Source of the DNA: Candidatus Altarchaeota archaeon
GTDB taxonomy: Archaea; Altiarchaeota; Altiarchaeia; IMC4; QMZM01
Length of the DNA stretch: 33,540 bases
Direction: 5' to 3'
NCBI GenBank assembly: GCA_016931955.1
Contig: JAFGDV010000025.1
Span: forward strand, 1 to 33,540
The position numbers were made by a program, and so were the translations under genes. Below, piece after piece: positions 1-10,788 of this stretch; the stretch's first letter is position 1, and each line of letters starts with the position of its first letter. The notes beneath the pieces were generated by a model. That model was not told the origin of the DNA and searched no databases. It was given only the letters and a program-made list of their open reading frames with translations.

Positions 1-2
1 AA

Positions 3-3000
3 GACCAGAATCTAAACTACACGAACATTTCAGTCTACGAAAACTTCGGATGCTACGACAACCAAACACAAATACTGACAAGAGAAGGATGGAAACACTT
101 CCAAGAACTAGAAGACGAAGAAGTGGCGACACTGAATCCGGAAAAAGGCTTAGAATGGCATAAACCAACAGAACACCAAACCTACGACTATAACGGAGAA
201 ATGTATGAGATCACACTAGAAGACAACACATCCCTACTAGTTTCACCAGAACATAGAGTCTATAGTAGAATAGAAGATCAGATTAATCTAAACAATTTCA
301 GCAATTCTTCGGTAGTATACACTTTGATTCCATACTTCTCCAATGCCTTTAATCTCCTCTCCTTAGACCAAAGCCCAACTGAAAGTTCAGAACTCTTAAA
401 CCAGAAACACAGAGCAGTATATGGAACATCCTTAACATGCGAAGACAATATATCAGCTGCTTTAGAACTGAAATCCTTGAATTTTTCTTCTTCGACAACC
501 TCCACAAACAAATTTAAGTGCTCTAGTACCTCATCAAATTCCCCCTCCGAGATCCTCGATTTCAAACAGATTTCTCCCTTGTGTTTAATTAATTCTTTAA
601 TACAAAGTGAAGGCGTATACAATTCAAATACTTCAAATGATGTTATTAACTGCCTTGTCGTGGACTCTCTCTTAAAGAATGAGAATAAAACATTCATATC
701 CACAACAAGTCTCATCTACAGCCACCCTTGCCTCTTCCACTCACTAATAATCTCCCCCTCAGCAGATCTAGAAAGCTTCGAACACTGTTCATCAGTTAAC
801 TCCGACTTCTCCAGTAACTTATCCACTCTCTTCAGAATCAGATCTCTCGTCAATCTAAGCCTCACCAATGACTTAATATCCGCCCGCAACTCAGATGCTG
901 TTGCCTTATCTAATCTAACACCCGGTAGCTTAACAACAATCTCCGCCATAAATACTAATACACAGAACAACTATTTAAATAAATTCACACTAATGAAGGT
1001 CTCCGAGATTTATGGAACCGATAAGCAGCTACTATTCTTAGACGGAAACCTGAACACTATAAAAGTCACAAAAATAGAGAAAACCTTATACTCTGGCAGA
1101 ATCTACGACGTCACCGTACGAAACCACATCATACTCATAAAAAGAGACGGCAAACCAATATGGAGCGGTAACTCCTACAGTTTAGTGAATTCAACAGTGA
1201 CCACCCAAAACGGAACATTCACAGTAACATTGGGCGTGCTGGCAGACGGCAACTATAACATCACCGCAACAACATACGACAACGCAACAAATTCTAACTC
1301 AGATTCTGTTATCGTAGCAGCAGACACCATAGCACCAACCACAAACGCAACAGCAATCAAAGATGATTCTTCTCCGTATACATTCAACACGTGGACGAAC
1401 TCATCCTATATCAACATAACACTGACATGCGACGACGGACTAGGAACAGGCTGTGATATGACACTCTACTGTATTGACGCAAGCAACTCCTGCGAACCCG
1501 ATAAAGCATATATGATTTCATGGGATTACAGGCAGCCAATCTCTTTCCTGAACACTGCAGGAAACCAGACAGATTATCAGGTGAAGATAAACCTAAATTC
1601 TTCAAATGTCGGCTCGAACTGGAACTGGACAAACAACGGAGACGACATAAGATTCACTTACTATAATTCCTCAAGCGACACAGAAGGATTAATCCCGTAC
1701 TGGATCGAGTCCTGGAACTCCACAACCAATATAACGCTAATCTGGGTGAACGTGCCTTTCATGGAGAACAACACAAACACAACAATCTATATGTACTATG
1801 GAAACCCATCGGCTGTTTCTATGAATGACGGCAACGCTACTTTCGTTTTCTTCGACGACTTCGCTGACGATGATATCTTAGATTGGGGAAAGGGAGGGGA
1901 TACATCCACTATCTCAGTTTCGGGAGGTGTCGTTACCATAAACGATCCCTCATCAGTTACATCCATCACTCACTCATTTAACGCTCTCTCCAGCGTTCGT
2001 CTGAGAGGTAGCTTCAAGACAAACATTGGCTGGGTTAGTCTTTCAACATCTGGAGACTGCTATGCTGTAGGCTACTGCTCTGGAGGAGGATGCGATGGCG
2101 GCCCAAACACAATCAACTACTACGGCTCAGATCTATTCTACCACTTAGTCGGTCCAGCGCCATACAACATCTTCCACACAGTTGAGATAAGGGATGCTAC
2201 TCCAAATGTCCAAAATACAGCTGATTACTCCGTCGACTTAACTGAGGTAACCAACAAAGATCAAGCCTCATTGACAGCGTCTGTGAACCAAGTCAGATTC
2301 CAAGCTAGCAACCTAAATGATCCCACAGCATATTTGGATTGGATCCTTATTGCAAAATATGGCTCACCCGAACCCGTAGCTTCCCTTGGCAGTGAAGAAA
2401 ACCAAACACCAGTAATCCAAGTCACGGCTGACGGAGTCTCTTACATCCGATTCAAATCCAATGATGTTGTAGAAAACACTGAATACACAAAGAACAAAAC
2501 AATAAAGATCGACTACACTCCGCCGAACATCACAATAGTGAATCCCACAAATAATACAAACCTCTCAGATGGTATAAGTTGGACCTGGATCAATATTTCC
2601 ACAGATGAAAACGCATCCTGCAGATACAACCTATCAGTCGCAGACTTCGACTACGCTACTCAGGGAACAACCTTCACCAACACCGGCGGAACAACACACT
2701 CATTCAACTACAGCGGGTTAACGGACGGACAAAACTACACCCTCTACTATAAATGCAATGATTCTACATTGGGCAACATTAATCCATCGTCGGTGATGCA
2801 TACTTTCGGAGTGAACCAGACTCTCGCAAACAACCCGCCAACTAAACCTTCTCTGAACAGCCCAGACAACGCATCCTACGTGAACAAAAACTATGCCATC
2901 CTGAATTGGACCTGCCTTGACTCAGACGGAGACAACATGACAGCATACGTCTACGGAGACAATTCTACGGCGACAACACTCATAAATACAACCACAAACT

Positions 3001-6000
3001 GCCAAAACGGCACATCATACACTTACAACTGGACCAACCTCAACGAAACCACCTACTACTGGAAAGTCACATGCAACGACAGCAGCCTAGCGAACACATC
3101 AGACACATACCAGTTCACGGCAGACTGGACTCCTCCGACCACCAATGTCTCGGCGATGGAAGACGACTCCTCCACTTATACATTCAACACATGGACAAAC
3201 TCCAGTTATGTAAACGTGACACTAAACTGCACTGATCCAGACTGCGACACAACACAATACTGCACAGAGCTTGTGAACGGTTGCGTGCCAAACACAGTCT
3301 ATTCTGTGCCAGTGCAGGTTGCAGCAGAAGGAACCACTTATATAAAGTTCAGAAGCAACGACAGCGCTGGTAATCTAGAAGACATAAAGAATAAGACGAT
3401 AAGAATAGACTCAACAGCTCCAACCACTAACGCCACAGCGGTCAAAGACGACGGCTCACCTTACACCTTCGACACATGGACGAATTCAAGTTATGTAGGC
3501 ATAAATCTAAACTGTTCCGATAGTTCAGGAGCTGGCTGTGATAAAACACTATACTGCATAGATAACAACAACAGCTGTGACCCAGGTATAGACCGGGATT
3601 ATTGGAACTCTTGGGGATATAAGAAGATTATCGTAATCTCAGAAACAGATAACGCAGACAGAACAAAAAGACCGATTGAAGTCAACGTAACCGGCCTTAA
3701 ACTTCTTACTGATAATTGCACCAAAGAGATAAGAGTTGTTGATGAAAATAACAAAGAAGTGCCTTCCCAAGTTATTGATTCAGGAGGCCAAACGCTACCA
3801 GAAGGAAGTCAGTGGTGTAAGATAGCATTTTTAGTCGATGTTTCGGCAAATTCCCGTACAAGCTACTCCGTCTACTACGCTAATTCAGAAGCTACAGCAC
3901 CCAACTACACTTCATCCAGTGATCTAAGTATCAATGAAGGCAGTGGAACTCTTACAGCAGAAACAGCTTATTACCGATTAAGACTTCAGTCAAACGGCAT
4001 GTATGGAGACACGTGGTACGATAAATCCCATGCAGAGAATATCCTAACAGTTTCTAATTTAGGAGAAGGCACACCAAGGGAGTTTTATACAAATGTTGGA
4101 GGAGCTGATGATGTAGAACCCTACGTTAACAACTACATAACAGGCGCGTATTCCTGTAACTTAGAGAGAGGCGCGCTAAGAACAGTTTACACTTGCTCGA
4201 TCACAGACTACAACGTAGCAGGCATGAAAGTGAACAATACAAAGACGTTCATTTTCTGGACGAACCAGAGCTACTTCGAGTACAAAAACGAGCTCTGGTG
4301 CAATCAAACCAACTGTAATGGAACCTTAATCACGGCACATCTGGATTGGCCAGCAGATTGTAATAACGAACAATTTTACAACGGAACGTATGTATCCAGC
4401 GGCGGAAATAACGAGGTCACAAACAATCCATCCGAAGGATTAATCTGCACTTGGATCCATTGCAGAGAACAATATGCATGCCTATGGGCCCCTCCAAGAT
4501 ATTCAAACGACCTGCATTGGTTAAGATTCGGCTATAATAGTGACGCAGACACCACTGTTTGGTGGTCCCAGCACATGCACTCCAAGTGGATTTCAAACAC
4601 GAATAAGGTCGAAGCCAGAGTCGCGTTGTGGGTTGAATATAATGATTCCCAGCCATCTCTTCTAGACTACCAGAACATTGTAGACCCAGAATTTAAAGAA
4701 TACGCCAAAAATTTAAGCGTAGAAATCAGTAATGAAATGGATTCTTCAGTTATACAAATCACTCAAGAAGGGGCCTCATATATCCGATACAGAAGCAACG
4801 ACACTCTGGGGAACCTGGAAACAACGCAGTCAAAGACTATCAGGATAGACTATAGTCCGCCACAGATCACTTTAGTGTACCCCATAAACAACACCAACCT
4901 GTCAGCTGGGACCACGTGGACGTGGATAAACATAAGCACAGACGAGAACGCAGTCTGCAAATACAACCTAACAACTGCAGCATTCGACTACGGAACACAG
5001 GGGACACAGTTCACGACAACTGGAGGAACAACTCACTCATTCAATTATCTTGGACTAAGCGACGGACAAAACTACACCCTCTACTATAAATGCAATGATT
5101 CAACAGTAGGGAACATAAATCCAAGTTCAATAATGCACGCCTTCGGAGTGAACCCAACACCAAATAGACCACCCAACAAACCCTCTCTCAACAGCCCAGC
5201 GAACGGAGCAGGAAACCAGAATCTTTCACCGACACTGAATGTCACAGTAACAGACCCAGACGCAGACCAGATGAACGTATTATTCTACAACAACGCGACT
5301 GGAACACAGATAGGGATAACACAAGTAAATGTGGCAAATGGAAGCACGGCAACAGTGACATGGTTGAATCTGAACTATGGAACAACCTATGGATGGTATG
5401 CGAATGCCACAGACGGAGAATACATGAACAAAAGCGACGTGTGGAGTTTCACGACAAGGTCTGCGCCAGGCTTCACAGTAAACCTGAACACACCAGAAAA
5501 CCAGACCAAGACAAACGATAATACAACCGACTTCAACTTCAATGTTACGGGGACAGAAACCATATACAATTGCACGCTGAAAGTAGACAACATAGACAGA
5601 GGAAACAACGACTCAGTGCAGAACAATACTCCCACGACGATTACTTCAACACCGCTCACAGACGGAGCACACAACTGGCACATAAACTGCACCACAGGTG
5701 GACTAACAAACAAGAGCGAGATACGGCAGATAACAGTAGACACTCAGCCGCCGAATGTGACCTTGCAGTCTCCATTTAATGGAAGCACGGACCTGGATGG
5801 GAACCTGACGTTCACCTACCATGTGAGAGATAATCTGGCAAACAACCTAAACTGCACACTATATACAGATATTAATGGTCCATGGCAGCCCAACCAAAGC
5901 CAGAATACAACGAATAACAGCGTAGACACATTCACATTGAATAACACAGGAGACGGCGTCTACGAGTGGAACATACGATGCAGTGACGGAGTGAATCAAG

Positions 6001-8534
6001 CATATGCGCCGGCGAACTATGAAATAACAGTGGATACGGGAACGCCTGAACTGACCCTCAGCTCAACAGATATTGTCTTCTCCAACCCAACACCTCAAAC
6101 AGGGCAGACGATAACGATAACAATAACGGCACACAACCTTGGAGGAATAACGGCGAACAACTATACAGTAGAATTCCTATTAAATGGAATCACACAAGCG
6201 AACAAGACACTGACAACAAGAGCGTATTCGACAAACACGACAACCTTCCAGTGGAACACGACACTTGGAACACACACAATAATGATGGCATTAGACCCGG
6301 AAGACAACATAGCAGAAGTGGATGAAACAAACAACAATGCAACACAGCAGATCACAGTATCTAACCCAGCACCTCCACCCAAGGAATACCTGCACATCTC
6401 TACTTCAGGGAACTGCGTGAACAAGCAGGTAACGATAACGGTAGAAGACGACGACAGCGCCCCAGTACCCAGTGTGAGCGTAGACGTCTACTTCGATGGC
6501 TCAAAAATAGAAAGCAAGACAACCGGATCAAACGGACAAACAACATTCATACCAGAAAACACTGGAACACACACGATAAAGGCAGAGAAGTCAGGGTATG
6601 AACCAGATGAGAAAGACATAACTATATCTTCATGTGAGTCATGCACTGACGGAATAAAGAACCAGGATGAATCAGACACAGACTGCGGAGGCTCTTGCCC
6701 GAAATGCGGGGACGGGAAAAACTGCTCAACAGATGTGGACTGCAGCTCAAGATGGTGCTACAACGGAGTATGCACAACCTCAACCTGCTTCGACGGAATA
6801 CAGGGTCCCGGAGAACTTGGGATAGACTGCGGCGGACCATGCACGCCATGCCCAAGCTGCAACGACAGCATCCTGAACCAGGATGAATCAGACGTGGACT
6901 GCGGAGGTTCTTGTCCGAAATGCGGGGACGGGAAAAACTGCTCAACAGATGTGGACTGCAGCTCAGGATGGTGCTACAATGGTGTGTGCACGACACCCAG
7001 CTGCTTCGACGGCGTCATGAACCAGGACGAGACAAGCATAGACTGCGGCGGAGTCTGCCATGGATGCACGGAAGGAGAACCCTGTTTGATAGATAGGGAC
7101 TGCCTGAGCGGATGGTGCTATAATGGAACATGCACAATACCCACATGCTTCGACGGATTACTGAACCAGAATGAGACAGGAGTGGACTGCGGAGGGCCTT
7201 GTATAGAATGCCACTGCCTGAATGGGGTGTTAGACGAAAACGAAACCGAGGTGGACTGCGGAGGAAGCTGTCCACCATGCGGCTGCATGAACAGGGTAAT
7301 GGATGGAAATGAGACAGATATTGACTGCGGGGGAGAATGCCCTAAATGCACGGAAGGAAGAAGCTGTCTGATAGATGGAGACTGCACCACAGGGTGGTGC
7401 TACAACGGAATATGCTCCATCTCAAGCTGCAACGACAGGATACAGGGGCCAGGAGAGGGAGGGATAGACTGCGGCGGACCATGCACGCCATGCCACTGCC
7501 TCGACAACACGCAAAACGAGGGAGAGGAAGGCGTGGACTGCGGCGGAGAATGCCCCCCATGCAGGCTCATAAGGATCACAACAAACGAAACAGAAACAGG
7601 GGAAATCACCACCATACTCTACAACGCCTCAAGCGTCTGCCTGAACAACAAAAAAGATGCTGGAGAAACAGACATAGACTGCGGAGGACACTGTCCCCCA
7701 TGTAAGGCGAACAAGACCTGTCTAAACAACACAGACTGCCTCTCAGGATGGTGCTATGAAGGCATCTGTAGGATCACCAGATGCGACGACCATATAAAAG
7801 GACCTAGAGAAAACAAAACAGACTGCGGTGGACCATGCGCAGAATGCCCATGGATAAAATTAGACACCCGATGCTACTTGGGAGAAAACCTCACAATAGT
7901 AGTAATAAACCCAATGAAAGAACTACTCCTCACAATAAAAACACCCAAAGGGGAGACACTGGAATACAATATGAGTAAGAGGGGGTTGGAAACCTATCAG
8001 GTGATAACCTACGAACCCAAAGAGGAGGGACTGCATCTGCTGGAGATACAAGAATACGACCAAAGATACGTCAATGTGAGGAGGAAACCGCTAATACCAA
8101 TCCTAGAAGACATACCAGAGGAAGTGAAAAGCCTCTTCATCCCACTGCTACTGATGGGGTTATTCACGTACTGGTGGAGGAAAAGACGGACGGCTATCGT
8201 AATAGATGAATCCGTAATCAAAAAGCTCACAGAAGACCCCACATTAGCCAAAAAATACAGGAGGATTTACACAGCCACAGAAACATGGAAAGACCTAACA
8301 GAGATAAAAGAATTAGTCTTCATAGAACTCACAGAAGCTGAGATAGACGAAGCAGAGAACCTATCGGACAGATATGGGATACTAGTCAAGGACGCGAGAA
8401 CATTGATGCTATGCAGGAGGCTGAGGGCTAAGAAACTCATAACCGGAACAGAATTCCCGGAGGAGATCAGGGAAAACTTTGAAGGCACAAAGATAACAAA
8501 CATAGAAAAAGAACTAAAACAGAAAAGACTATAA
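3..8534 (+). CDS. Giant modular surface protein (5' end outside window): intein-interrupted N-terminal region, Ig-like repeats, DUF2341-like module, CARDB-like domain, Cys-rich repeat array, one C-terminal TM helix and a cytoplasmic PIN-like tail
   Basis: Frame open from nt 3 (DQNLNYTNISVYENFG|CYDNQTQ...) to the stop at 8534. Repeated 'APTTNATAxKDDxSPYTFxTWTNSSY...IRFKSND' units, many N-x-S/T sequons, CARDB-like stretch 'VFSNPTPQTGQTITITITAHNLGG...EVDETNN', TM 'SLFIPLLLMGLFTYWW' followed by RKRR. Confidence 0.9.
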   Translation, partial: DQNLNYTNISVYENFGCYDNQTQILTREGWKHFQELEDEEVATLNPEKGLEWHKPTEHQTYDYNGEMYEITLEDNTSLLVSPEHRVYSRIEDQINLNNFSNSSVVYTLIPYFSNAFNLLSLDQSPTESSELLNQKHRAVYGTSLTCEDNISAALELKSLNFSSSTTSTNKFKCSSTSSNSPSEILDFKQISPLCLINSLIQSEGVYNSNTSNDVINCLVVDSLLKNENKTFISTTSLIYSHPCLFHSLIISPSADLESFEHCSSVNSDFSSNLSTLFRIRSLVNLSLTNDLISARNSDAVALSNLTPGSLTTISAINTNTQNNYLNKFTLMKVSEIYGTDKQLLFLDGNLNTIKVTKIEKTLYSGRIYDVTVRNHIILIKRDGKPIWSGNSYSLVNSTVTTQNGTFTVTLGVLADGNYNITATTYDNATNSNSDSVIVAADTIAPTTNATAIKDDSSPYTFNTWTNSSYINITLTCDDGLGTGCDMTLYCIDASNSCEPDKAYMISWDYRQPISFLNTAGNQTDYQVKINLNSSNVGSNWNWTNNGDDIRFTYYNSSSDTEGLIPYWIESWNSTTNITLIWVNVPFMENNTNTTIYMYYGNPSAVSMNDGNATFVFFDDFADDDILDWGKGGDTSTISVSGGVVTINDPSSVTSITHSFNALSSVRLRGSFKTNIGWVSLSTSGDCYAVGYCSGGGCDGGPNTINYYGSDLFYHLVGPAPYNIFHTVEIRDATPNVQNTADYSVDLTEVTNKDQASLTASVNQVRFQASNLNDPTAYLDWILIAKYGSPEPVASLGSEENQTPVIQVTADGVSYIRFKSNDVVENTEYTKNKTIKIDYTPPNITIVNPTNNTNLSDGISWTWINISTDENASCRYNLSVADFDYATQGTTFTNTGGTTHSFNYSGLTDGQNYTLYYKCNDSTLGNINPSSVMHTFGVNQTLANNPPTKPSLNSPDNASYVNKNYAILNWTCLDSDGDNMTAYVYGDNSTATTLINTTTNCQNGTSYTYNWTNLNETTYYWKVTCNDSSLANTSDTYQFTADWTPPTTNVSAMEDDSSTYTFNTWTNSSYVNVTLNCTDPDCDTTQYCTELVNGCVPNTVYSVPVQVAAEGTTYIKFRSNDSAGNLEDIKNKTIRIDSTAPTTNATAVKDDGSPYTFDTWTNSSYVGINLNCSDSSGAGCDKTLYCIDNNNSCDPGIDRDYWNSWGYKKIIVISETDNADRTKRPIEVNVTGLKLLTDNCTKEIRVVDENNKEVPSQVIDSGGQTLPEGSQWCKIAFLVDVSANSRTSYSVYYANSEATAPNYTSSSDLSINEGSGTLTAETAYYRLRLQSNGMYGDTWYDKSHAENILTVSNLGEGTPREFYTNVGGADDVEPYVNNYITGAYSCNLERGALRTVYTCSITDYNVAGMKVNNTKTFIFWTNQSYFEYKNELWCNQTNCNGTLITAHLDWPADCNNEQFYNGTYVSSGGNNEVTNNPSEGLICTWIHCREQYACLWAPPRYSNDLHWLRFGYNSDADTTVWWSQHMHSKWISNTNKVEARVALWVEYNDSQPSLLDYQNIVDPEFKEYAKNLSVEISNEMDSSVIQITQEGASYIRYRSNDTLGNLETTQSKTIRIDYSPPQITLVYPINNTNLSAGTTWTWINISTDENAVCKYNLTTAAFDYGTQGTQFTTTGGTTHSFNYLGLSDGQNYTLYYKCNDSTVGNINPSSIMHAFGVNPTPNRPPNKPSLNSPANGAGNQNLSPTLNVTVTDPDADQMNVLFYNNATGTQIGITQVNVANGSTATVTWLNLNYGTTYGWYANATDGEYMNKSDVWSFTTRSAPGFTVNLNTPENQTKTNDNTTDFNFNVTGTETIYNCTLKVDNIDRGNNDSVQNNTPTTITSTPLTDGAHNWHINCTTGGLTNKSEIRQITVDTQPPNVTLQSPFNGSTDLDGNLTFTYHVRDNLANNLNCTLYTDINGPWQPNQSQNTTNNSVDTFTLNNTGDGVYEWNIRCSDGVNQAYAPANYEITVDTGTPELTLSSTDIVFSNPTPQTGQTITITITAHNLGGITANNYTVEFLLNGITQANKTLTTRAYSTNTTTFQWNTTLGTHTIMMALDPEDNIAEVDETNNNATQQITVSNPAPPPKEYLHISTSGNCVNKQVTITVEDDDSAPVPSVSVDVYFDGSKIESKTTGSNGQTTFIPENTGTHTIKAEKSGYEPDEKDITISSCESCTDGIKNQDESDTDCGGSCPKCGDGKNCSTDVDCSSRWCYNGVCTTSTCFDGIQGPGELGIDCGGPCTPCPSCNDSILNQDESDVDCGGSCPKCGDGKNCSTDVDCSSGWCYNGVCTTPSCFDGVMNQDETSIDCGGVCHGCTEGEPCLIDRDCLSGWCYNGTCTIPTCFDGLLNQNETGVDCGGPCIECHCLNGVLDENETEVDCGGSCPPCGCMNRVMDGNETDIDCGGECPKCTEGRSCLIDGDCTTGWCYNGICSISSCNDRIQGPGEGGIDCGGPCTPCHCLDNTQNEGEEGVDCGGECPPCRLIRITTNETETGEITTILYNASSVCLNNKKDAGETDIDCGGHCPPCKANKTCLNNTDCLSGWCYEGICRITRCDDHIKGPRENKTDCGGPCAECPWIKLDTRCYLGENLTIVVINPMKELLLTIKTPKGETLEYNMSKRGLETYQVITYEPKEEGLHLLEIQEYDQRYVNVRRKPLIPILEDIPEEVKSLFIPLLLMGLFTYWWRKRRTAIVIDESVIKKLTEDPTLAKKYRRIYTATETWKDLTEIKELVFIELTEAEIDEAENLSDRYGILVKDARTLMLCRRLRAKKLITGTEFPEEIRENFEGTKITNIEKELKQKRL
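278..715 (-). CDS. PIN-domain ribonuclease toxin (VapC-like), antisense inside the intein
   Basis: MRLVVDMNVLFSFFK...LYTPSLCIKELIKHKGEI...HVKDVPYTALCFW...LWSKERRLKALEKYGIKVYTTEELL: PIN motifs (N-terminal VVDxN, mid KEL, KDVPYTAL, WSKxxRL). ATG directly abuts the antitoxin TAG. Confidence 0.87.
   Translation of the reverse strand: MRLVVDMNVLFSFFKRESTTRQLITSFEVFELYTPSLCIKELIKHKGEICLKSRISEGEFDEVLEHLNLFVEVVEEEKFKDFSSKAADILSSHVKDVPYTALCFWFKSSELSVGLWSKERRLKALEKYGIKVYTTEELLKLFRLI
716..949 (-). CDS. VapB-like antitoxin, antisense inside the intein (start at MAEIVV; the ORF track extends to 970)
   Basis: MAEIVVKLPGVRLDKATASELRADIKSLVRLRLTRDLILKRVDKLLEKSELTDEQCSKLSRSAEGEIISEWKRQGWL. C-terminal 'KSELTDEQCSKLSR' resembles archaeal VapB tails; immediately upstream of and same strand as the PIN toxin. 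Confidence 0.75.
   Translation of the reverse strand: MAEIVVKLPGVRLDKATASELRADIKSLVRLRLTRDLILKRVDKLLEKSELTDEQCSKLSRSAEGEIISEWKRQGWL
972..985 (-). promoter_or_regulatory. Archaeal TATA box for the antitoxin-toxin operon (leaderless type)
   Basis: Minus strand reads ...GAATTTATTTAAATAGTTG..., centred about 29 nt upstream of the antitoxin ATG (949), the expected spacing for a leaderless archaeal transcript. Confidence 0.6.
6630..7850 (+). repeat. Cys-rich tandem repeats within the surface protein (CxDGixNxdExdxDCGGxCpxC ... CxxdxDCxsgWCYNGxC)
   Basis: About ten copies of 'DCGG' with alternating 'GWCYNG' units in the translated frame; near-identical nucleotide repeats around 6700 and 6915. Confidence 0.85.
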
Positions 8535-9614
8535 GACCCTGCCCATCTCCCTCTCGAGCAGAGCCATCTCTTTTTCGCTGAGAGCCTGCGGATTAATCGG
8601 GATTATAAGCCTGCAGTCCTTCAACTCTACCTTATCCTTCATCCCCTGAACGAAGCGCAGAACCTGCTCAAAGTTGGCGTGACTTATCAGGTATTCTAAG
8701 CCATCTAGGAGGATCACCGTCTTCTTGTTCTTCTCGATGAAGTCGCTTATGAGAGCAAAAAGCTGGTCTGGTTCAGGTGAAATACATTTACCGGTGCTTA
8801 ATGAGTCAGTAAGCCAGTAGATTGATATGGATTCACACAGCAACTGGAAGTCAACGTCTGCGATGTGCTCCTTCTCAATCTGCTCCGGGTTTGTTCGGGA
8901 GATGTAAAGACCCTTACATAGGGAGTTAACCGTTTTAAGAAACAAGGCAAAGCTTTTATCTGGCTTATACTCCTTAACCAAGTAGGTATGTCTTCCCTCC
9001 AATTCCTCGACCTCCTCTGTGCTGGGCATAACCTCCCCCTCCTTCAATTCCATGAACGTTTCAACCGTCTTCATCAGATCCCTGACGTCATTGTTCAATG
9101 GTGTGCCAATCCTCACAGACGGCGCCCCCTTCACCGAGATCTTTAATCTGCCCAACAGGGATAAAACGGATCTGGTAAAGTATAAGAAGGCTGCGAGGGG
9201 CAATACAATAGCCAGTAGATTGAATACGGTCTCTGGTAGGATGGCTGAGATGATTCCCGACAACTCAGGCACGTTTTCTTCAAAAAAAGAAAACACCGAC
9301 GTTATCACACCCTTGGAGTCTTCAGATTTCAAATACCCGTAGATCGAGGCCGCAAGCAGGGCTAAGGACTTAAAGATCAAGTCCCATGGAATGTAGACGT
9401 GGTGTTCTATGTTCGCTATATTCTTATAGGCTATGGGTATGAATGCCTTAGGGAACCTTCTCACAAAGATGATTCTTTTATTTGTCGCCACGGCCTTATG
9501 GAAACCAACTGTGAACTCCTGAATAGGCTCCTCCCCCTTAGTCAGATACTTGAGGTACTTAGACTTCAGATAGCCTTTTCTTATCGCATCCATATCTTTC
9601 CCCAATGGTTCCAT
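8529..9614 (-). CDS. Membrane protein: PH-like N-terminal region, TM segments, C-terminal DUF835-like domain
   Basis: 'FTVGFHKAVATNKRIIFVRRF...IAYKNIANIEH' PH-like; C-terminal 'GLYISRTNPEQI...TVILLDGLEYLISHANFEQVLRFVQGMKDKVELKDCRLIIPINPQALSEKEMALLERE' matches the DUF835 pattern. Confidence 0.7.
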   Translation of the reverse strand: MEPLGKDMDAIRKGYLKSKYLKYLTKGEEPIQEFTVGFHKAVATNKRIIFVRRFPKAFIPIAYKNIANIEHHVYIPWDLIFKSLALLAASIYGYLKSEDSKGVITSVFSFFEENVPELSGIISAILPETVFNLLAIVLPLAAFLYFTRSVLSLLGRLKISVKGAPSVRIGTPLNNDVRDLMKTVETFMELKEGEVMPSTEEVEELEGRHTYLVKEYKPDKSFALFLKTVNSLCKGLYISRTNPEQIEKEHIADVDFQLLCESISIYWLTDSLSTGKCISPEPDQLFALISDFIEKNKKTVILLDGLEYLISHANFEQVLRFVQGMKDKVELKDCRLIIPINPQALSEKEMALLEREMGRVL

Positions 9615-9708
9615 GGCCTTATGTCACCACCTTTTTAAGTATATATATGACAAAGTATATATATGTAGTGTAATAAACAGCTAGATATCCATCTCTGGAG
9701 GCAACAAA

Positions 9709-10113
9709 GTGAGGTATTCCACAATATCAGACGAGGAGATACATGAGATCAAGAAGATGTACGAGTCAATAATGTCCAAATCAAGTCATGGATTGTTTCA
9801 TTCAACTGGGAAGATAATAGGACAACACATAATCAAAGAAATCACTGACAGGGATAGATTCTTCGAAGAGGCCTCCAGGATACTAAAGGATAGGGATATC
9901 GTGCGGGATATATCCTTTGAAGAGAAGACGATAACGGTGAGGGGCTCTATAGAGGTAACCACCAGCGAATCCAACACCTGCGACATATTGAGGGGAATAA
10001 TCGCCGCCCTTTACAGGGGATACTACGATAAGAAGATATACTGCGAAGAAAAGGAATGTGAGAGTAAGGGCGCTGATGCCTGCAGATTCGAGATCATGGA
10101 GGAGGTAGTCTAG
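9709..10113 (+). CDS. V4R-domain protein
   Basis: 'RGIIAALYRGYYDKKIYCEEKECESKGADACRFEI', the V4R C-terminal Cys pattern. Confidence 0.7.
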   Translation: MRYSTISDEEIHEIKKMYESIMSKSSHGLFHSTGKIIGQHIIKEITDRDRFFEEASRILKDRDIVRDISFEEKTITVRGSIEVTTSESNTCDILRGIIAALYRGYYDKKIYCEEKECESKGADACRFEIMEEVV

Positions 10114-10788
10114 ATGGAAAGACTGGAAACCGGCATCCATGGCCTAGACGAGATGACTGCCGGAGGATTCGCGCTGCCCTCAATGATTCTTGTTGGGGGT
10201 GAGCCAGGAACAGGGAAAACGACATTTGCCATGCAAAGCCTCTTCTATGGTGCGGAAAAAGGCGAACGCGGACTTTACCTGACCGCAATATCCGAACCAG
10301 TATGGGTCGTACAGAAGTTCCTGGGCAACTTCTCCTTCTATTCGGATAAGGCTATTGAGACAGAGAGGCTCGTATTCAAGGACATCGGTGCCGTCCTCTC
10401 GGAAAACCCGGACAGCATCCTGCAAGCGATACAGAAGAACGTCGAAAAATATGAGCCGAAGAGGGTTGTTATCGACCCCGTCACCGCAGTGATGAACAGC
10501 CTAGACGACGTAGTCAAATACAGGAGGTTCATGCATGACCTAACGACCTACATGAAGAGCCAAGCATGTGTAGCGATCCTGACTTCGGAGTACTCCTACG
10601 CTGATCTCCCGCATTCAGTGGACGCGTACATGGTCGACGCCCTGATCATTCTCTCTTATATGGAGATCGAGAACGCGAGAAAGAAATACCTCGAGGTCTT
10701 GAAGATGAGGGGGACAAAACACATAACAGGTAGAAGATCCCTCATACTGTCAGAGGAGGGGCTGCGCGTCCAACCAGAACTGAGGTAG
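10114..10788 (+). CDS. KaiC/RadA-like RecA-fold ATPase
   Basis: 'LETGIHGLDEMTAGGFALPSMILVGGEPGTGKTTFAMQSL' Walker A; 'RVVIDPVTAVM' Walker B. ATG directly follows the TAG of the V4R gene. Confidence 0.85.
   Translation: MERLETGIHGLDEMTAGGFALPSMILVGGEPGTGKTTFAMQSLFYGAEKGERGLYLTAISEPVWVVQKFLGNFSFYSDKAIETERLVFKDIGAVLSENPDSILQAIQKNVEKYEPKRVVIDPVTAVMNSLDDVVKYRRFMHDLTTYMKSQACVAILTSEYSYADLPHSVDAYMVDALIILSYMEIENARKKYLEVLKMRGTKHITGRRSLILSEEGLRVQPELR

Follow-up and report, generated by a model that had tools for sequence, protein, structure and literature searches.

According to the homing-cycle view, inteins without an endonuclease should disappear over time, and their persistence calls for an explanation. 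The window (the whole stretch of 33,540 nucleotides analysed here) raises this question directly, as its first 1.2 kb hold an intein with a toxin gene and a candidate antitoxin gene lying antisense between the two splicing halves. An earlier note on this DNA had proposed that such a pair could keep the intein in place by addiction. In this study, we asked whether the arrangement is genuine, whether it recurs and what could maintain it. The features of the locus are as follows.

3 to 50, plus strand: N-extein, the end of an Ig-like repeat (...NLNYTNISVYENFG), at the contig start.
51 to 278, plus strand: N-terminal splicing half of the intein, Hint blocks A and B (TIGR01445, PF14890, AlphaFold2).
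51 to 53 and 252 to 254, plus strand: codons of Cys1 and of the block-B SPEH His.
278 to 715, minus strand: PIN_2 toxin gene, 145 aa (ATG 715-713, stop 280-278; PF10130).
716 to 949, minus strand: candidate antitoxin gene, 77 aa (ATG 949-947; its stop, 718-716, directly adjoins the toxin ATG).
972 to 979, minus strand: archaeal TATA box TTTAAATA, 30 bases upstream of the antitoxin ATG.
987 to 1172, plus strand: C-terminal splicing half of the intein, Hint blocks F and G (second half of PF14890, AlphaFold2).
1170 to 1172, plus strand: codon of Asn374 (intein end ...IWSGN, then Ser).
1173 to 8534, plus strand: C-extein, the remainder of the giant surface protein, first residue Ser+1 (open frame, Pfam).

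The host frame (3-8534, plus strand) was stop-free over 2843 aa, and because it runs in from the contig start, the protein is at least 2843 aa long. Pfam domains were of the surface type, with Ig-like, DUF2341, CARDB and Cys-rich repeats and a C-terminal hydrophobic segment. Downstream, the genes scanned at 8529-30493 were ordinary archaeal ones (DUF835, KaiC-like ATPase, HerA-like, Phe-type class II tRNA synthetase, L10e/L16, MetRS, aminotransferase V and amidohydrolase). The intein occupied 51-1172 of the plus strand, from Cys1 to Asn374, followed by Ser. The earlier note had put its Hint halves at 51 to about 277 and about 987-1172, with Cys1, the terminal Asn and Ser+1, and profile searches, AlphaFold2 and Foldseek all bore this out. 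TIGR01445 matched the N-terminal region above its cut-off (E 1.8e-6), and PF14890 covered both halves at E 4.6e-7, with 30.2 bits against a cut-off of 35.8. The Hint motifs were significant in profile searches. In the AlphaFold2 model, which was built from an alignment that included viral inteins, the pLDDT was about 85-95 for residues 1-70 and 75-93 for residues 331-374 (82-93 at 341-374), and it fell to about 30-60 across the greater part of the insert. Every Foldseek match of this model at E<=0.001 was an intein or a Hint relative, and the top structures were 7qsu (1e-6), PI-SceI and gp41-1. The N-half was 61-64% identical to those of L052, L053 and L056, and the C-half was 52-68% identical to those of its relatives with antisense cassettes. 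An alignment of 22 rows showed no variation at Cys1, the block-B His68 or the terminal Asn. At the penultimate position the intein has Gly in place of His, a trait shared by most of its relatives here. Protein splicing is predicted for this intein. Homologs of the host repeat without an intein (L221, L222 and L223, in genomes G002 and G008) align across the junction at 51, and these empty sites at the same domain position count in favor of a true intein with a toxin–antitoxin (TA) insert. Neither Pfam nor a custom LAGLIDADG-type HMM detected an endonuclease of the LAGLIDADG or HNH type between blocks B and F of the sense frame. The same-family relative L057 has a canonical LAGLIDADG endonuclease in its sense frame.

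The minus-strand ORF 715-278, named a PIN toxin in the earlier note, was confirmed as PF10130 PIN_2 (E 2.8e-14). Its AlphaFold2 model had a pLDDT of 90.9, and the nearest solved structures found by Foldseek were PIN/VapC proteins. The toxin does not lack homologs: those in L022 and L005 were 65% and 57% identical, respectively. Among its candidate acidic active-site residues, Glu41 and Asp96 were invariant in a small alignment, and Asp6 was replaced by Asn in one relative. The name "VapB-like" given to ORF 949-716 found no support from profiles, as this ORF had no match in Pfam or NCBIfam, including the AbrB, RHH and PHD antitoxin types. The gene pair itself stood: the same partner precedes the homologous toxin in two other archaea, L005 (52% identity) and L022, and the antitoxin of L272 showed weak similarity in its C-terminal part. 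The label "antitoxin" follows from position and conservation, not from a profile, and the product of 949-716 would be expected to neutralise the toxin. The TATA box that had been noticed upstream of the antitoxin was found as the octamer listed above. L022, an Aenigmatarchaeota MAG, has an open frame of 3233 aa (2-9700, minus strand) antisense to a TA array of three PIN and one DUF433/DUF5615-like modules, together with two retropepsin-like ORFs and some small ORFs that resemble membrane proteins. Next to the toxin in L022 that is most closely related to that of the window, one stretch resembles a decayed intein N-half.

The first sign that the arrangement is shared was that a search with the host/intein protein matched one strand of the relatives and a search with the PIN protein matched the opposite strand. 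The genomes searched were 397 archaeal genomes, 380 of a second phylum and 187 of one family within that phylum. Only the N-half was used to discover inteins of this kind (hereafter TA-inteins), which means that an insert did not have to be open for its intein to be included; cassettes were assigned with Pfam, for representatives, and with our own profiles. The search that the earlier note had suggested, for other inteins with an antisense TA spacer, gave 27 TA-inteins with 34 antisense cassettes in 18 archaeal genomes of two phyla. There was one TA-intein each in the window, L052, L053, L024, L054, L056, L193, L194, L272, L278, L285, L330, L331, L332, L333, L336 and L339, and two each in L055, L270, L271, L329 and L334. 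The cassettes belonged to three superfamilies: PIN (16, namely 15 PIN_2 and one PF01850 PIN), ParE/RelE-like (12) and DUF433/DUF5615 (6). L330 holds two PIN cassettes in tandem, and L329 combines ParE with DUF433/DUF5615 within one intein. The endonuclease position proposed for the cassette proved to be the main site but not the sole one, as the block-A loop holds additional cassettes in L024, L055 and L270, and the loop between blocks F and G holds cassettes in L332, L334 and L339. Profiles made from the toxins found gave no match to either strand of 134 endonuclease-bearing inteins, nor did they detect a cassette in sense orientation anywhere. Recurrence in 27 inteins places the arrangement above chance.

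Several individual loci deserve mention. In L055 (3024-3260 and 5640-5880, genome G008), the N-halves have frameshifts next to low-complexity TED/RLEW repeats, which could be decay or assembly error; with such frameshifts in some G008 inteins, not all of them may splice and they may be decaying. L052 (3800-4093) and L056 (1571-1855) both have an extra insertion of about 20 residues at an identical position, immediately ahead of block B in the splicing domain. An intein-like N-half in L179 (about 9336-10200) is followed by a large opposite-strand ORF with DUF559/Vsr-like nuclease and zinc-finger segments (E 7e-7), and L298 has a similar opposite-strand ORF, with a weaker match, at no more than about 1.2 kb from the HintN of its host strand; these are possibly antisense-encoded endonucleases in inteins. 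Large antisense ORFs in the viral inteins L131, L139, L168 and L183 were rejected as candidates, since they look like GC-rich noise over the endonuclease and match no toxin profile.

Constraint was found on both strands. We fixed the toxin and antitoxin proteins, redrew synonymous codons from same-genome or same-locus usage and counted stops in the sense frame. Over 17 cassettes, 0 stops were observed against about 49 expected, with a joint P of 1.5e-28. This value is not a strict probability, given the partial relatedness of the cassettes, the small size of the usage tables and some over-prediction by the method. The control of non-intein PIN genes had 23 stops where 35 were expected, or 23 against about 29.5 after removal of three L022 genes, which lie antisense in the 3233-aa frame. 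Permutation of codons within genes would be too weak as a stop test, because several toxins contain no TTA, CTA or TCA codons at all. Exact archaeal TATA boxes were present upstream of 12 of the 17 antitoxins, compared with 1.5% of the windows taken in antisense from the host gene flanking them, and several cassettes have GGTGAT upstream, a candidate ribosome-binding site. At the level of sequence, these results show that the sense frame is under selection for openness and that the promoter boxes are conserved; the refuting conditions that the earlier note had set for the sequence were tested and failed. Nor were the minus-strand ORFs disrupted in relatives: cassettes were kept or swapped, and 27 of the 28 lineage members have one. 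The structural reading in the earlier note was right and indeed understated, and our results support that the antisense cassette defines an intein lineage.

The history of this lineage was examined by trees of the splicing domain and of the PIN toxins. The splicing-domain tree is unrooted by inference and places the TA lineage among endonuclease inteins; in it, the TA-inteins and L277 formed one clade (SH-aLRT 99), separate from each of the 64 endonuclease inteins in the sample, with one change between TA and endonuclease cargo and at least 12 changes of cassette type inside the clade. The intein PIN toxins were polyphyletic and interleaved with non-intein PINs; supported branches force at least five changes, and a single clade of intein PINs was rejected (AU p 7e-40). 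This interleaving indicates that cassettes were captured repeatedly, and one Hint clade with polyphyletic PINs means that one intein lineage captured them many times. Sister species of genus g323 share the same host site (KDGTRLIAEFSNLTDNEYNKVYLT) and have different cassettes in different loops; L331 holds DUF433/DUF5615 in the endonuclease loop and L332 holds a ParE cassette in the F-G loop. The phylogenies thus show a single origin of the splicing lineage, with polyphyly and swapping of cassettes, and genome comparison establishes the anatomy, the recurrence and the repeated capture. Inter-phylum horizontal transfer of the intein was hinted at by a first Hint tree, but the larger tree gave no resolution on this point and G008, whose contigs are short, is possibly misbinned, so we do not propose it. 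ARAGORN predicted a tRNA-Leu(CAA) gene inside the intein, with the frame still open, in three genomes (L331:2072-2157, L277:778-862, L334:828-914); in G871, BLAST with this tRNA-Leu(CAA) returned the intein copy only.

We believe it quite probable that the endonuclease of this intein lineage was lost and that the lineage now persists, or is kept in place, by means of addiction modules that can be exchanged. The reason for this is that three unrelated toxin superfamilies, with only their toxin–antitoxin character in common, were recruited where a persistence module, the endonuclease, is expected. In the proposed mechanism, the endonuclease would have been lost and type II TA cassettes would have settled antisense in Hint loops, chiefly the former endonuclease loop. 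Translation of the host gene would run through the whole element, and the intein would presumably excise itself along with the Ser/Asn-rich spacer derived from the antisense strand. The cassette, with an archaeal promoter of its own on the opposite strand, would make antitoxin and toxin independently. When the intein is deleted, or replaced through recombination with an allele that lacks it, the supply of antitoxin would end and residual toxin would poison or arrest the cell, and with loss punished in this way the intein would be kept without homing. Cassettes have been taken repeatedly from TA pairs elsewhere and exchanged, and two are stacked in some inteins. Splicing, toxicity, killing on intein loss and retention as the selected function are the steps we infer. 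More broadly, we regard it as probable that these elements form a class of selfish element in which homing is replaced by addiction, with swappable antisense cassettes distributed over several splicing-fold loops, selection on both strands, at least three toxin superfamilies and two archaeal phyla. L277, the lineage member with a tRNA gene and no TA pair, counts against addiction, since it means that retention without a TA pair is possible.

The main rival holds that the TA cassettes are themselves the selfish units, and that the endonuclease-free, excised and tolerant loops are merely a harmless site for them, of no benefit to the intein. It would account for cassettes in the block-A and F-G loops, for the tRNA-Leu gene inside three elements of the lineage and for the repeated capture of PIN toxins from non-intein relatives. 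The cassettes of L022 also fit it: they lie antisense in a giant frame in which no intein can be recognised, and they show that the intein is not the only antisense harbor. However, the 134 endonuclease inteins have none despite comparable loops, the association is limited to one Hint clade in which nearly all members have a cassette, and passive insertion leaves the near-exclusive presence of TA pairs unexplained; we consider this rival unlikely, though deserving of attention.

It is also conceivable that the cassettes serve the cell, as stress or phage-defence modules or by antisense regulation of the surface-protein gene. Elsewhere, PIN, ParE and toxins related to them function in stress and defence, and the host gene would suffer interference from convergent transcription. 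Nevertheless, cassettes turn over fast at a conserved position, which selfish persistence fits better than a specific regulatory role, and no defence genes were found among the ten scanned neighbors of the window intein; this reading appears distinctly improbable. An artefact, be it chance ORF overlap or an assembly chimera joining a TA pair to an intein, is hardly credible: nearly all genomes are multi-contig drafts and some contigs are short, but recurrence refutes it (two of the 27 occurrences are in G002, a single-contig genome), and the open sense frames, significant toxin families and conserved promoter boxes speak against it, with chance overlap excluded by recurrence and the stop test.

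Addiction by a swappable cassette may be set against known systems. The components of the element are known families, and the composite is new within the open-access full-text literature covered, in which no report of a TA pair inside an intein was found. Compared with LAGLIDADG homing inteins (the archaeal and viral set used here, PI-SceI/TliVMA), TA-inteins have the same Hint fold, Cys1, terminal Asn and cargo position between blocks B and F, whereas their cargo lies on the opposite strand under its own promoter, has two or three genes, consists of a TA pair and is incapable of homing. Mini-inteins likewise have a splicing domain without an endonuclease; in them the gap is a short linker or nothing, while in TA-inteins, with Hint halves of about 75 and about 62 aa, interchangeable cassettes in antisense orientation occupy it. 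Type II TA loci (PIN_2/VapC-like, ParE/RelE-like, DUF433-DUF5615) share the toxin families, the antitoxin-first order, the abutting or overlapping genes and the own promoter, and non-intein homologs of the cassette pairs occur in L005, L060, L063 and L066; in contrast to such loci, the cassettes of TA-inteins are embedded antisense in a stop-free protein-coding frame. The lineage is also a large natural collection of overlapping antisense genes in which both strands are under constraint, and a clear case of cargo swapping inside a protein-splicing element. With plasmid addiction, or post-segregational killing, TA-inteins share the proposed logic that loss of the element removes the labile antitoxin, but what would be protected here is not a replicon; it is the intein allele of a chromosomal gene. 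In this respect, the TA-intein lineage offers a concrete and testable answer, addiction, to the persistence of endonuclease-free inteins.
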